A stretch of 5,404 nucleotides of DNA, taken from contig JAGHAJ010000077.1 in the NCBI GenBank assembly GCA_021161545.1, positions 1 through 5,404 on the forward strand. The letters are read 5' to 3'. Positions 1,133-5,111 of this stretch are shown piece by piece (position 1 is the first letter of the stretch; every line of letters begins with the position of its first letter). A model generated the notes under the pieces. The model saw nothing but the letters and a program-made list of their open reading frames with translations, did not search any database and was not told the origin of the DNA. A program made the translations under genes and the position numbers. Origin of the DNA: Synergistota bacterium (GTDB lineage Bacteria; Synergistota; JAGHAJ01).

Positions 1133-2053
1133 CTACGGTATCCTCCTCAAAAATCCAAGGTATTGATTCCCGGTAAACAAGAAGTATACAAACAAAAGCA
1201 AAACGAACGTGGAATAAACCAGGAACCATTTCTTCTCAAATATTCTCTCAGGGTCTTTGACTATGCTGTTCTCCTCATATAACAAATGAAAGAACCACAC
1301 CACAAAGACAACCACGAATGGTAAAAGGAGTATAAGGTCTGCACTGTACTTCATACTTATCGCACCAAACATGAAAGAACATGCTGCTAATGAAGCTACA
1401 ATAGCTATCATAAGCTTTTCCTCACTATAATGTGCAAAACTCTTTCTATATGCAACCAGTTCATTTCTGTCCCTGACAAATCTTATTTCGGCAAACCTCT
1501 TGGATGCCATAAGAAAAATACCCAAAAACCAGAACCCCAGCACTACAGAGGCGGGGACAAGGTGTTCAGCTGAAGCAACACTATACCACCCAACAAGCAA
1601 CCTTATAGGGTTATTAGCTGCTTCGGAGATAAAGTCAAGATAAGGCTTATCTTTCAGCCTGAAGGGTTTTACATTATAAAGAATCCCACTGATTAACAGT
1701 AATAAGACAGAGATTTCCAGCATGTAGTTGTTCGTGAGAGTTGACAACACCAATCCAGACAGATAAAGCAAAACAGAAATAACCAACACAAACCTCTTCG
1801 AAATCCTGCCAGATGGAATGGCCCTATGTCTTTTCTCTGGATGGTGGGCATCTGCCTCTGCATCAAGTATTTCATTGATGCCATAATTTCCAGAAGCAAC
1901 AAGGCATATAGAGATAAAACCTACAATGATCCCATATAGATTTGACAAGATATTCTGGTGAAGCACCTTCAGAGCAAACAGCGCACCAACCAACATAAAT
2001 GTATTCCTGTACCATCTTTTAGGCCTATAAACATCTATCAGCATTTTTATCAT
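1133..2053 (-). CDS. UbiA-superfamily prenyltransferase, similar to decaprenyl-phosphate phosphoribosyltransferase
   Basis: Integral membrane enzyme of 306 residues with about eight or nine hydrophobic helices, the normal size for the superfamily. Features typical of decaprenyl-phosphate phosphoribosyltransferase (DPPR synthase, the actinobacterial arabinan-pathway enzyme) are visible. RPKRWYRN (10-17) matches the family's RPxxWxKN opening. The first Asp-rich motif is N60-E61-x2-D64-x3-D68 followed by HPEKRHRAIPSG (71-82). The second acidic region is around D140 with a downstream arginine (R151), and SKRFAEI (184-190) lies in the second half. These enzymes transfer 5-phosphoribose from PRPP to a polyprenyl phosphate at the cytoplasmic membrane face. 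The usual NDxxD reads NExxD here, a conservative change. The ATG overlaps the HAD gene's stop by four bases (ATGA). Ubiquinone- or menaquinone-type prenyltransfer is the alternative, less likely given the DPPR-like motifs and glycan context. The superfamily is near certain; the DPPR-like activity is a good inference. Confidence 0.9.
   Translation of the reverse strand: MIKMLIDVYRPKRWYRNTFMLVGALFALKVLHQNILSNLYGIIVGFISICLVASGNYGINEILDAEADAHHPEKRHRAIPSGRISKRFVLVISVLLYLSGLVLSTLTNNYMLEISVLLLLISGILYNVKPFRLKDKPYLDFISEAANNPIRLLVGWYSVASAEHLVPASVVLGFWFLGIFLMASKRFAEIRFVRDRNELVAYRKSFAHYSEEKLMIAIVASLAACSFMFGAISMKYSADLILLLPFVVVFVVWFFHLLYEENSIVKDPERIFEKKWFLVYSTFVLLLFVYFLFTGNQYLGFLRRIP
1141..1148 (-). promoter_or_regulatory. 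Ribosome binding site fixing the GTG start of the aminotransferase
   Basis: GAGGAGGA on the minus strand, 8 bases before the GTG at 1130-1132. It is nearly a full complement to the 16S rRNA 3' end and lies inside the last codons of the prenyltransferase gene. It decides the start because no ATG is available near the beginning of the conserved region. Confidence 0.85.
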
Positions 2054-2637
2054 AGTTTGGTTATTTCCCCTCCTTTTACCATAAAAGTTTCGTCTGCAAT
2101 CTCCATCAGAGGTAGGTCATCGTATGAGTCCGTGTAAAGGTGAATACATCCGTACTCCTCTATCGTTATCACTTTCCGCAAAAACTTGAGTTTATTCACA
2201 TTCCAGCAGGTTTCAAAGTTCTCACCAACTCCATTACAGCTATTAGATACTACCACGTCAAACGGGAAAACTCCACTCAAAACACCCTTTATAAGTCCTT
2301 CTTCAGAAGCAGAGACAACCACGATTCTATCATACAGCTGTTTGCCAAGAAACTCCAAAAGCCTATCGTTCAGTTTAGTCCGGAAATAGTTCACGTAACT
2401 TCGGAGTTTTACTTCATCCATACGACAAAACTTCGACAGCAGTATCCTCTTAAAAGTATTCCTCGCATAAATCTGCTTCTCTCTCCGATTGGGGGATAAA
2501 ACACGCACAATAAAAACTCTACTCCCCGCAATCAGAAACCTCGCATCAAGATAATACCTCTCCTTTCTAAAAATATACCCAAGTGTATCGCACATCACAA
2601 TTGTATTGTCAAAGTCAACAAGGGCAAGTTTCTTCAC
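2050..2637 (-). CDS. HAD-superfamily phosphatase (subfamily IB-like), candidate lipid-phosphoribose phosphatase
   Basis: A 195-residue haloacid-dehalogenase-fold hydrolase with all four motifs: motif I VDFDNT (nucleophile D8, acid/base D10, T12), motif II S109 in VVVSAS, motif III K149 in NVNKLKFL, and motif IV D170 and D174 in TDSYDDLPLM. The helical insert between motifs I and II (about 20-95) fits the C1 cap of the phosphoserine-phosphatase-like IB group. Such enzymes remove phosphate through an aspartyl-phosphate intermediate with Mg2+. The start is GTG at 2635-2637, overlapping the upstream stop as GTGA; an AGGAAGGTGG stretch 10 bases upstream could pair with 16S rRNA, and motif I begins right after it. 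The gene is coupled at both ends and sits directly before a DPPR-synthase-like gene. This suggests it removes the 5-phosphate from polyprenyl-phosphate-phosphoribose, a step done by a PAP2-type protein in mycobacteria. The fold is sure; the substrate is inferred only from context. Confidence 0.92.
   Translation of the reverse strand: MKKLALVDFDNTIVMCDTLGYIFRKERYYLDARFLIAGSRVFIVRVLSPNRREKQIYARNTFKRILLSKFCRMDEVKLRSYVNYFRTKLNDRLLEFLGKQLYDRIVVVSASEEGLIKGVLSGVFPFDVVVSNSCNGVGENFETCWNVNKLKFLRKVITIEEYGCIHLYTDSYDDLPLMEIADETFMVKGGEITKL
2067..2077 (-). promoter_or_regulatory. Ribosome binding site of the prenyltransferase gene
   Basis: AAAAGGAGGGG on the minus strand, inside the end of the HAD gene. 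The spacing of about 13 bases to the ATG at 2051-2053 is longer than ideal, so re-initiation through the ATGA overlap may contribute. Confidence 0.6.
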
Positions 2638-5111
2638 TTTACAAAAACCACCTTCCTAAACACACTTGCACCCTTCCGTTCAAACCACGATACACCTTCC
2701 TGAACCAGTGTAATCTCAAGCACATATTTCCCCCTTCTTCCGGGAGCTCTGACCATTAATGGCACTTTAATAACCTCCCCACTTTTAACCACACATGGAA
2801 GAACAGCTCTATTACCGTCAAATACCACAGTCTTCCCAGTTCTTACATCCAACCAGTGATAGGATAGATGAATGTTATAAAGTGTCGGGATACTAACTGC
2901 TGTCCGATAGTTCAATCTTTGCCATCTGTTGTCAGCATATGTAATCCAATCGTACCTGCTTACGTTCTTAAATGTCACAGACACTCTTATAGTTCTCCCA
3001 CCCAAAAACGCCCTAGGAAGATCTACAGCGATAAACTTTACTCTGTATCCATCATCTGGTAAAGGTTGACAATTCCAATATTTTACACGGTGTACAATGT
3101 TTACAATACATCTTCCTATTAAACCTCCACCTATATCACACACCTCAACTACATATCTACCCACTGGTAAATTGGGTACCTTGAATTTACCTACTATGCA
3201 CTTGTGTGGTTCCATAAAAGCAAGCTTCTGTGCCTCTATAGCCACTTTTTCTCTATAAACTTCCCTGTTAGTTCTGTCTTTCCACACTAAGGACACCATT
3301 TTCCTATCCAGGAACACAACAGGTTTCTCATCGAGTAACTTCAGAACAACCACACTCCACCTGTTCGACGGCAAACTATGAGGAATATACACAGAAAACC
3401 TATGACTTGAGAGTTTCGTACCATATGGTATAAAGTTCCTATCTCTATCTGTTATCTCATAAACTATACTTTTTTCATCCTCATACACTTTTCTAAGGCT
3501 GTCTCCACCTACTTTCACCAATCTCCCAATATCACTCTTAGAATACCACATTTTATATACCACTACATACTTCACATTTATGGACTTTAGCACAGACAAC
3601 TTCTTTTCAAAATTGCTTACTCCGAGTATCTGCTGAATAGGTGGAAGATTTGTATTGAAAGCACTAACTATTCTCTTCCAGTGATAAGTAGAGTAATACA
3701 TGTAAAATGGCATCTCACTTATACTATAAGGCACTTCAAAAATAGCAAAATTCCCTTTTTGCTTTGACAGCCAGGAAATCACAGGTAAATCTTTCTTGTC
3801 GTAAGGTAAACGAACCATACTCAATGGGAAAGACGCATACTCAACCAGTATCAGCAAAGGGATGCTCCATAACAACCATTTTTTTCTCAACTTTTTCTCT
3901 AAGAAAGAAATAGAGTAAGCGACAAGTATAGCTACACCCAAGGCAACAAAAACTACAAATCTGGACGGCTCACGAAGTCCACAAAATCCGGGTACAAACT
4001 TATACAATAACAGGTAAACATTTGGAATAACAAGTGAATGCAGCTTTATATAGGGCCCGAAGGACAATAAAATAGCTAAGACAGTAAACAACGTATAAAA
4101 GAAAATATTGTGATACATAGCTACTTTCATCTTAATGCGTCCTAAAAGATAGAGTATCAAACCAATCGGTAAGAAACCTATAAAAGCAGGCCTGTCTCCC
4201 AAAAAGTGAAGCCCTTTTATCACTTTATACCAACTAAAGGTAGAGTAATAACTCTTAACAGTTGCTGAATACCATTCAACTTCCCAAATACTTCTGGTCA
4301 TCCCATAAAGACCACGAAGAATTATATAAGGATAGTAAAAGGGAAAGATAAAACTCATCGAAATCCCTATAAATAAAATAACTGATAGAATGTGCTTTCC
4401 AGCGACTAAGATACGGTAATAAAAACCGTAAAAAACAATAAACAGGCCGATAAAAACTGAAAAATACATCATATAGTATCCGCTGGAAAGCGCAGTAAAA
4501 ACAAAAAAGATAGATGCGTATATCATATATCTATACTTATATCTTTCATAGAATTTGTGAAGACACAAAAGAGTAAGCGGCATCCACATGGTCATCATAT
4601 TTTGAATCTGATGAATACACCACATTTTATAAGGTATGAATGAAAATATAATTCCTCCCACAATACCTGCAAGATAACTCTTTGTAAGGTGTTTTACCAA
4701 CACAAACATTGTAATGCCAGATAATGCAAATGGTAGTATCGTAAGTATTCCATACATCACTATGGCACTTCTGGTAATCAAATACAAAGGCAATCCCATA
4801 AGCGCAGTAAAAATCTGGTGTTCTGAAAATGCAAGAGTAAGTTTATAAGAATAAAAAACATTCGCATCAAATAACTGCTCCACATTTAATCCATTTTGTA
4901 GGATACTATGTATATCCCACATAAGTGTCCATATGCTTATCAAGTCATCGTGAAACTGAGCCACGACATACCCATAAAACATATCTCTAACAACAGGATA
5001 TGTCATTATAATAGATATGCAAACAAAGAAAATAATCATAGCTACATATTGGAGCTTTCCACGAATATTAGCCTTACTGCCAGTTTTAAACATACTATCT
5101 CCTTTATCCAT
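2634..5111 (-). CDS. Large GT-C-like polytopic membrane glycosyltransferase with C-terminal beta-sandwich domains
   Basis: An 825-residue protein. Residues 21-428 hold about 11-12 hydrophobic helices. The first outer loop (41-96) carries an acidic pair D55-D56 in QFHDDLISIW and, further on, FSEHQ (95-99); this layout is characteristic of GT-C enzymes, whose first loop acidic residue is catalytic. GLREPSRF (378-385) and LPVISWLSKQ (442-451) are recognisable from a widespread family of uncharacterised bacterial membrane proteins in glycan clusters. After the helices come a mixed alpha/beta part (about 437-560), a beta-rich part (about 565-672) and a terminal Ig-like domain (about 679-825) with LSYHWLD, VRAPGRRGKY and LVQEGVSWF. 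GT-C enzymes use polyprenyl-phosphate sugars as donors and act outside the membrane, which fits the two lipid-sugar genes downstream. ATG at 5109-5111 overlaps the upstream stop by 8 bases; ATG at 5091-5093 (Met7) also has a strong ribosome site. The glycosyltransferase role is inferred from architecture; donor and acceptor are unknown. Confidence 0.85.
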   Translation of the reverse strand: MDKGDSMFKTGSKANIRGKLQYVAMIIFFVCISIIMTYPVVRDMFYGYVVAQFHDDLISIWTLMWDIHSILQNGLNVEQLFDANVFYSYKLTLAFSEHQIFTALMGLPLYLITRSAIVMYGILTILPFALSGITMFVLVKHLTKSYLAGIVGGIIFSFIPYKMWCIHQIQNMMTMWMPLTLLCLHKFYERYKYRYMIYASIFFVFTALSSGYYMMYFSVFIGLFIVFYGFYYRILVAGKHILSVILFIGISMSFIFPFYYPYIILRGLYGMTRSIWEVEWYSATVKSYYSTFSWYKVIKGLHFLGDRPAFIGFLPIGLILYLLGRIKMKVAMYHNIFFYTLFTVLAILLSFGPYIKLHSLVIPNVYLLLYKFVPGFCGLREPSRFVVFVALGVAILVAYSISFLEKKLRKKWLLWSIPLLILVEYASFPLSMVRLPYDKKDLPVISWLSKQKGNFAIFEVPYSISEMPFYMYYSTYHWKRIVSAFNTNLPPIQQILGVSNFEKKLSVLKSINVKYVVVYKMWYSKSDIGRLVKVGGDSLRKVYEDEKSIVYEITDRDRNFIPYGTKLSSHRFSVYIPHSLPSNRWSVVVLKLLDEKPVVFLDRKMVSLVWKDRTNREVYREKVAIEAQKLAFMEPHKCIVGKFKVPNLPVGRYVVEVCDIGGGLIGRCIVNIVHRVKYWNCQPLPDDGYRVKFIAVDLPRAFLGGRTIRVSVTFKNVSRYDWITYADNRWQRLNYRTAVSIPTLYNIHLSYHWLDVRTGKTVVFDGNRAVLPCVVKSGEVIKVPLMVRAPGRRGKYVLEITLVQEGVSWFERKGASVFRKVVFVK
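2648..2657 (-). promoter_or_regulatory. Ribosome binding site of the HAD phosphatase gene (GTG start)
   Basis: AGGAAGGTGG on the minus strand, 10 bases before the GTG at 2635-2637. It overlaps the last codons of the membrane-protein gene and supports a GTG start within the GTGA overlap. Confidence 0.55.
5099..5105 (-). promoter_or_regulatory. Second ribosome binding site for the membrane protein (ATG at 5091-5093)
   Basis: AAAGGAG on the minus strand, 5 bases before the Met7 codon. It would give an 819-residue protein starting 10 bases after the glycosyltransferase stop. The sequence does not settle which of the two starts is used; both leave the first membrane helix intact. Confidence 0.55.

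Follow-up and report, generated by a model that had tools for sequence, protein, structure and literature searches.

Polyprenyl-phosphate pentoses donate sugar units to surface glycans, and in mycobacteria a drug target pathway begins with them. In Mycobacterium tuberculosis, the UbiA-fold transferase Rv3806c (structures 8j8j and 8j8k) is accompanied by the PAP2-type protein Rv3807c, which is unrelated to HAD phosphatases (PMC11127046), and by DprE1/DprE2. In the polysaccharide locus of Citrobacter youngae O1, ORF15, a fusion of HAD and UbiA domains, makes farnesyl-phosphate-ribose from PRPP, and the 5-phosphate stays on most of the product when the HAD nucleophile is changed (Kelly, PNAS 2024, PMC11127046). 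Together with a predicted flippase and a GT-C enzyme, ORF15 forms a three-component system that is widely found in bacteria (PMC11127046). Thus, a HAD protein serving as the phosphatase is already established and is not new, and the novelty that the original prediction saw in a HAD enzyme replacing the PAP2-type phosphatase had been published biochemically for ORF15. The new element suggested by our sequence comparisons is a widespread, uncharacterised sister subfamily of the transferase with a re-shaped sugar pocket.

The stretch of DNA analyzed here (the window) spans an entire contig of 5404 bases (G000:C80) from a genome that is 82% complete (1.58 Mb in 288 contigs). It carries five genes, all on the minus strand: first the end of a GT4 glycosyltransferase gene, then the genes for an 825-aa membrane protein, a HAD phosphatase, a UbiA-superfamily protein and, last, a DegT aminotransferase (Table 1). 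The HAD and UbiA reading frames lie where they were originally placed and share a four-base overlap (ATGA). The gene for the 825-aa protein, upstream of the HAD gene, overlaps it by four bases as well (GTGA), the DegT start is the base directly after the UbiA stop, and GGAGG-like sites occur upstream of the UbiA and DegT starts. From its sequence, the set appears to be translationally coupled as one unit, in the context of surface-polysaccharide genes. Overall, we think it probable that the UbiA and HAD pair makes a lipid-linked pentose within this operon.

Table 1. Genes of the window and conserved motifs of the UbiA protein, with positions in the window.
Feature	Position	Strand	Evidence
DegT/DnrJ/EryC1 PLP sugar aminotransferase; same operon, open at contig end	2..1132	-	PF01041 8.4e-60
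UbiA-superfamily membrane protein, 306 aa, ATG start, group A; proposed PRPP:polyprenyl-phosphate transferase	1133..2053	-	PF01040, NCBIfam, PDB, fold, tree
HAD-IB type phosphatase, 195 aa, GTG start; proposed remover of the 5'-phosphate from the UbiA product	2050..2637	-	PF12710, TIGR01490, HAD profile, motifs
825-aa membrane protein; weak candidate for a GT-C glycosyltransferase using a lipid-linked sugar	2634..5111	-	hydropathy only
GT4 glycosyltransferase, C-terminal part; same operon, cut by contig end	5104..5403	-	PF00534 9.9e-14
RPKRWYRN: Arg10 = Rv3806c Arg22 (beta-phosphate); Arg16 at Rv3806c Lys28 (5'-phosphate)	2003..2026	-	alignment
NEILDAEADAHHPEKRHR: Mg and pyrophosphate loop; Asn60, Asp64, Lys74, Arg77 = Rv3806c N73, D77, K87, R90; Glu61 replaces D74	1823..1876	-	alignment
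YNVKPFRLKD: group-A loop with 3-residue insertion; Tyr126, Lys134 = Rv3806c Y138, K143; Gly123 just before it = Q135 position	1649..1678	-	alignment
EAANNPIR: Asn pair invariant in group A; Asn at Rv3806c Y157 position	1601..1624	-	alignment
KRFAE: second conserved cytoplasmic motif, common with DPPRS; replaces the second Asp-rich motif of prenyltransferases	1487..1501	-	alignment

The UbiA protein matches PF01040 over the cut-off and far beyond chance (2.7e-26). Among NCBIfam models, two decaprenyl-phosphate phosphoribosyltransferase models rank first (99.5 and 89.1 bits), followed by PRK08238, a model of HAD-UbiA fusions, and one more phosphoribosyltransferase model; these outscore every other prenyltransferase model, with all top scores far under the cut-offs (99.5 versus 234 bits for the best). 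All 41 members of the A2 set match decaprenyl-phosphate phosphoribosyltransferase models. The best sequence match in the PDB is Rv3806c (8j8j, 1.3e-14; about 19-20% identity), and a 41-member profile finds it at 3.6e-25, with the next UbiA homologue at 2e-11. An AlphaFold2 model computed from an alignment of the same 41 sequences is confident (pLDDT 95), and its top match among solved structures is PRPP-bound Rv3806c (8j8j_A; Z 27.6, rmsd 2.7, 283 residues); the next UbiA homologue by fold has Z 23.0, and Z values above 20 to UbiA structures confirm the fold. In profiles and tree, the protein is not grouped with quinone, heme or chlorophyll enzymes. The original prediction of a DPPR-synthase-like enzyme therefore stands as regards its nearest relatives by profile, PDB sequence match and fold, but the protein lies outside the DPPRS clade and its ribose-contact positions are altered. 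Judged from sequence and model, it is nearest to the decaprenyl- and polyprenyl-phosphate phosphoribosyltransferases, in a separate subfamily.

This subfamily (group A) was delimited in a tree of 53 sequences, in which 35 group-A sequences, including the UbiA protein, are parted from 18 canonical sequences (group B, including Rv3806c and a DPPRS-annotated enzyme from a Lactococcus plasmid) by one branch with 100/100 support, present in 200/200 bootstrap trees. Escherichia coli UbiA, MenA and CyoE were rejected as outgroups, as their branches (8.6-10) were saturated and misleading, and the tree was rebuilt without them; because it is unrooted, we infer the sister status of group A rather than read it from the branching. 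A scan of 84,980 species genomes found 497 group-A relatives, and the best 80 of these 497 span Pseudomonadota, Bacillota, Bacteroidota, Planctomycetota, Spirochaetota, Gemmatimonadota, Thermodesulfobacteriota and others. No relatives were found in the viral contigs searched, and a phage search gave one partial match. The nearest relatives of the UbiA protein are two Thiotrichaceae proteins (52 and 49% identity), whose genes adjoin GtrA (L039) or GtrA and a HAD gene (L038). No description or biochemistry of group A was found in the openly accessible literature searched. Ubi-297 (PMC9235831) was rejected as a precedent, being a prenyltransferase for an aromatic substrate that groups apart from decaprenyl-phosphate phosphoribosyltransferase.

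With residue roles taken from the Rv3806c structure paper (PMC10994848), the UbiA protein keeps the Mg ligands N73 and D77, the pyrophosphate residues R22, K87, R90, Y138 and K143, and also Y70 (Rv3806c numbering), whereas Q135 is changed to Gly, Y157 to Asn, D74 to Glu and K28 to Arg. Two of the three motifs originally reported for it, NEILDAEADAHHPEKRHR and KRFAE, are present; the first reads RPKRWYRN, with Arg at the functional Lys28, and is hence only RPxxWxKN-like. Equivalents of R22, Y70, N73, D77, K87, R90, Y138 and K143 occur in 84/84 intact group-A sequences (an alignment of 85 rows, one of them mis-aligned). Gly at Q135, Asn at Y157 and Glu at D74 likewise characterize 84/84 intact members and 0/17 canonical sequences, the Glu being conserved partly by construction since the scan patterns included the NE motif. 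The canonical pattern, in 17 sequences and Rv3806c, is ND at 73-74, Q/N/T at 135 and F/Y at 157. Aligned hits from pattern-free searches of the window's own phylum and of plasmids also fall into two types, with no intermediates. Since the ribose-contact positions differ across group A, we name ribose as the probable sugar, not as the certain one. A family that has kept its catalytic end and rebuilt its sugar end could offer a route to new lipid-linked sugars, or lessons on the tolerance of the PRPP pocket.

The alternative that survives best is that group A performs the same chemistry, followed by the HAD step, but either draws on a donor that is not PRPP or loads an acceptor that is not polyprenyl phosphate; its product would then not be polyprenyl-phosphate-ribose. 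The changes at Q135 and Y157, next to retained Mg and pyrophosphate sites, would fit such a shift, as would the polar residues that are invariant specifically in group A (N56, E61, N127, R132, E144, N147 and N148). Further, group-A and canonical enzymes coexist in three genomes (G047, G050 and G072) and on one Polynucleobacter contig (L107), which suggests that the two subfamilies probably do different jobs. On the other hand, the positions that contact the 5'-phosphate are mostly kept (Lys28 in 81/85 rows, Tyr70 in 84/85; the Arg at Lys28 belongs to the UbiA protein and its two nearest relatives), and we know of no other sugar 1-pyrophosphate donor that is common in bacteria. We regard this alternative as rather unlikely. 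In its broader form, group A would be a distinct family of UbiA-fold phosphosugar transferases, spread over many phyla, that makes a non-ribose polyprenyl-phosphate sugar (or uses another acceptor) by transfer and then HAD action and has recruited at least two HAD subfamilies; this is possible but doubtful.

The partner of the UbiA protein matches PF12710 over the cut-off and far beyond chance (5.7e-10) and TIGR01490 below the cut-off (7e-8). Its HAD motifs look intact (DFDNT, SAS, NKLK and TDSYDD), and a profile made from the HADs that accompany canonical, group-B enzymes finds it at 2.1e-8. A HAD gene within three genes and in the same operon stretch was detected at 51/80 group-A loci (64%) versus 10/369 control genes from the same loci (2.7%, p ~4e-36), and a GtrA or SMR/EamA-like flippase at 17/80 versus 8/369 (2.2%, p ~1e-8), counts that are descriptive because both profiles were built from these same neighbours and the sequences are related by descent. 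Large polytopic proteins adjoin 27/80 group-A genes versus 68/369 controls (p ~0.004), and several are GT87 or PMT_2 GT-C proteins. Thus, the HAD-UbiA pairing is conserved; we saw neither a place for the UbiA protein among quinone, heme or chlorophyll clades nor a HAD protein grouping with phosphoserine phosphatases in an unconserved pair. The other 29/80 group-A loci have no HAD in the same operon stretch. Two HAD types occur, at 41 and 10 loci, and the window's protein is of the rarer, HAD-IB type, which accompanies both group A and canonical enzymes.

Several known loci resemble the window in part. As far as can be judged from the paper's description rather than from sequence, C. youngae ORF15 shares the UbiA-fold transferase and HAD phosphatase in a polysaccharide locus and the same Asn, Asp and KR..E positions, but unites both domains in a single protein with the canonical ND; in the window, two separate, overlapping genes encode them, the UbiA protein is of the NE, group-A type and differs at ribose contacts, and there is no flippase gene; the GT-C enzyme is encoded by a separate gene there and is only a candidate here. 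Rv3806c shares the fold and the Mg and pyrophosphate residues with the UbiA protein, but a HAD protein takes the place of Rv3807c in the window. Lactococcus plasmid pLLF27D (L118) has unfused genes for UbiA and a HAD of the same type, but its enzyme is a canonical ND one of group B, with GtrA adjacent. Group-A UbiA genes lie beside HAD and GtrA on plasmid pRspNXC14b of Rhizobium sp. NXC14 (L032), whose HAD belongs to the other type (type I), and in Rhodobacter sp. CZR27, where the HAD heads a multidomain protein of 885 aa (L031:5242-7899). This multidomain protein also has an incomplete UbiA-like segment and a long membrane portion and is probably a fusion of pathway parts.

Most likely, then, the UbiA and HAD proteins work in succession: a phosphorylated sugar, probably ribose, is joined to a membrane lipid, and its phosphate is then removed. 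With donor, acceptor and order of steps as we infer them, the UbiA protein would load polyprenyl phosphate with a 5-phosphopentosyl group, for which PRPP is the simplest donor, with Asn60 and Asp64 holding one Mg ion and the basic cluster of Arg10, Lys74, Arg77 and Lys134 serving the leaving pyrophosphate. The translationally coupled HAD protein would remove the 5'-phosphate to give polyprenyl-phosphate-pentose; the use of this lipid-pentose outside the membrane would then fall to a flippase encoded at another locus and to a GT-C enzyme, which may be the 825-aa protein. The broad function of the pair is well supported: the closest curated families and solved structure are phosphoribosyltransferases whose Mg and pyrophosphate residues are kept, group A neighbours HAD, flippase and GT-C genes, and the ORF15 enzyme assays provide a precedent by analogy. 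The lipid-pentose reading is weakened by the changes at Q135, Y157, D74 and Lys28, the loci that lack a HAD, the coexistence with canonical enzymes and the lack of a linked flippase.

The remaining pathway parts are less clear-cut. The 825-aa protein has about 10 predicted membrane helices in its first 430 residues and a largely soluble C-terminal half (hydropathy), a layout that makes it a weak candidate for a GT-C glycosyltransferase. Searches of Pfam (up to E 10), NCBIfam, the PDB, plasmids and the phylum assigned it to no family, and the only relatives detected are a fragment of 25% identity in its own genome (C3) and a short stretch in one genome of the same phylum; a single-sequence structure prediction (pLDDT 36) was not used. 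No flippase gene lies on the contig, which is cut at both ends, and GtrA had no match in the 82% complete genome, where the sole SMR/EamA-like gene lies by a GT2-type system. That genome contains a second apparent lipid-phosphate-sugar system on contig C138 (L140), with genes for a GT2 and an EamA/SMR-like protein, a truncated GT-C-like gene and another that resembles DegT.

We consider it very unlikely that the UbiA protein is an ordinary prenyltransferase for quinones, heme, chlorophyll or archaeal ether lipids, with the HAD protein as an unrelated phosphatase. Weak matches to those families exist, and the genome, which is 82% complete, yielded no second PF01040 protein. However, profiles, PDB match and fold all put phosphoribosyltransferases first, polysaccharide genes adjoin it here and HADs and flippases do so elsewhere, and the second Asp-rich motif is absent, its place being taken by KRFAE. 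Shared with DPPRS at this position, K191, R192 and E195 (KR..E) argue against a prenyl-diphosphate donor.

That the product is epimerised to arabinose through a DprE1/DprE2 branch, as in mycobacteria, hardly merits belief: on plasmids of Ruegeria, Flammeovirgaceae and Rhizobium, FAD oxidase and SDR genes do accompany canonical relatives, but the 80 group-A loci contained one DprE1, located after a canonical HAD-UbiA fusion that is encoded separately on that contig (L107), and no convincing DprE2, and the window's genome (82% complete) gave DprE1 matches at E 0.008 only, none convincing. The DprE1/DprE2 homologues for which a survey had been proposed are thus not associated with group A, and as group A has no DprE1 of its own, a ribose-to-arabinose step is not indicated. 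Nor was DprE1 found near canonical loci of the window's own phylum, so that its lack is no peculiarity of group A there.

The survey also revealed variations in gene content around these enzymes. On the Polynucleobacter contig (L107), the group-A UbiA gene (3526-4482) lies 7 kb from the canonical HAD-UbiA fusion and the DprE1 that follows it (11704-14428). In the window's phylum, a HAD-GtrA fusion, joining phosphatase and flippase domains, is encoded beside a canonical UbiA enzyme (L029:6317-7348). A gene for a methyltransferase of about 295 aa (PF13489) stands between HAD and UbiA in Bacteroidota L081 (3651-4538) and similarly in L043, L059 and L089. The group-A neighbours in Planctomycetota and Thermodesulfobacteriota include an asparagine-synthase-like glutamine amidotransferase protein (PF00733; L066:10944-12749, L053:6265-8133 and L050:10933-12750). 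At about 13 Lachnospiraceae loci (e.g., L069 and L091), group-A UbiA and HAD genes directly follow a prpC-prkC-rsgA-rpe-like order, a housekeeping rather than a polysaccharide neighbourhood. We take prpC-prkC-rsgA-rpe to be a common gene order, and the ribulose-phosphate epimerase next to group A, which belongs to it, was rejected as a functional clue.
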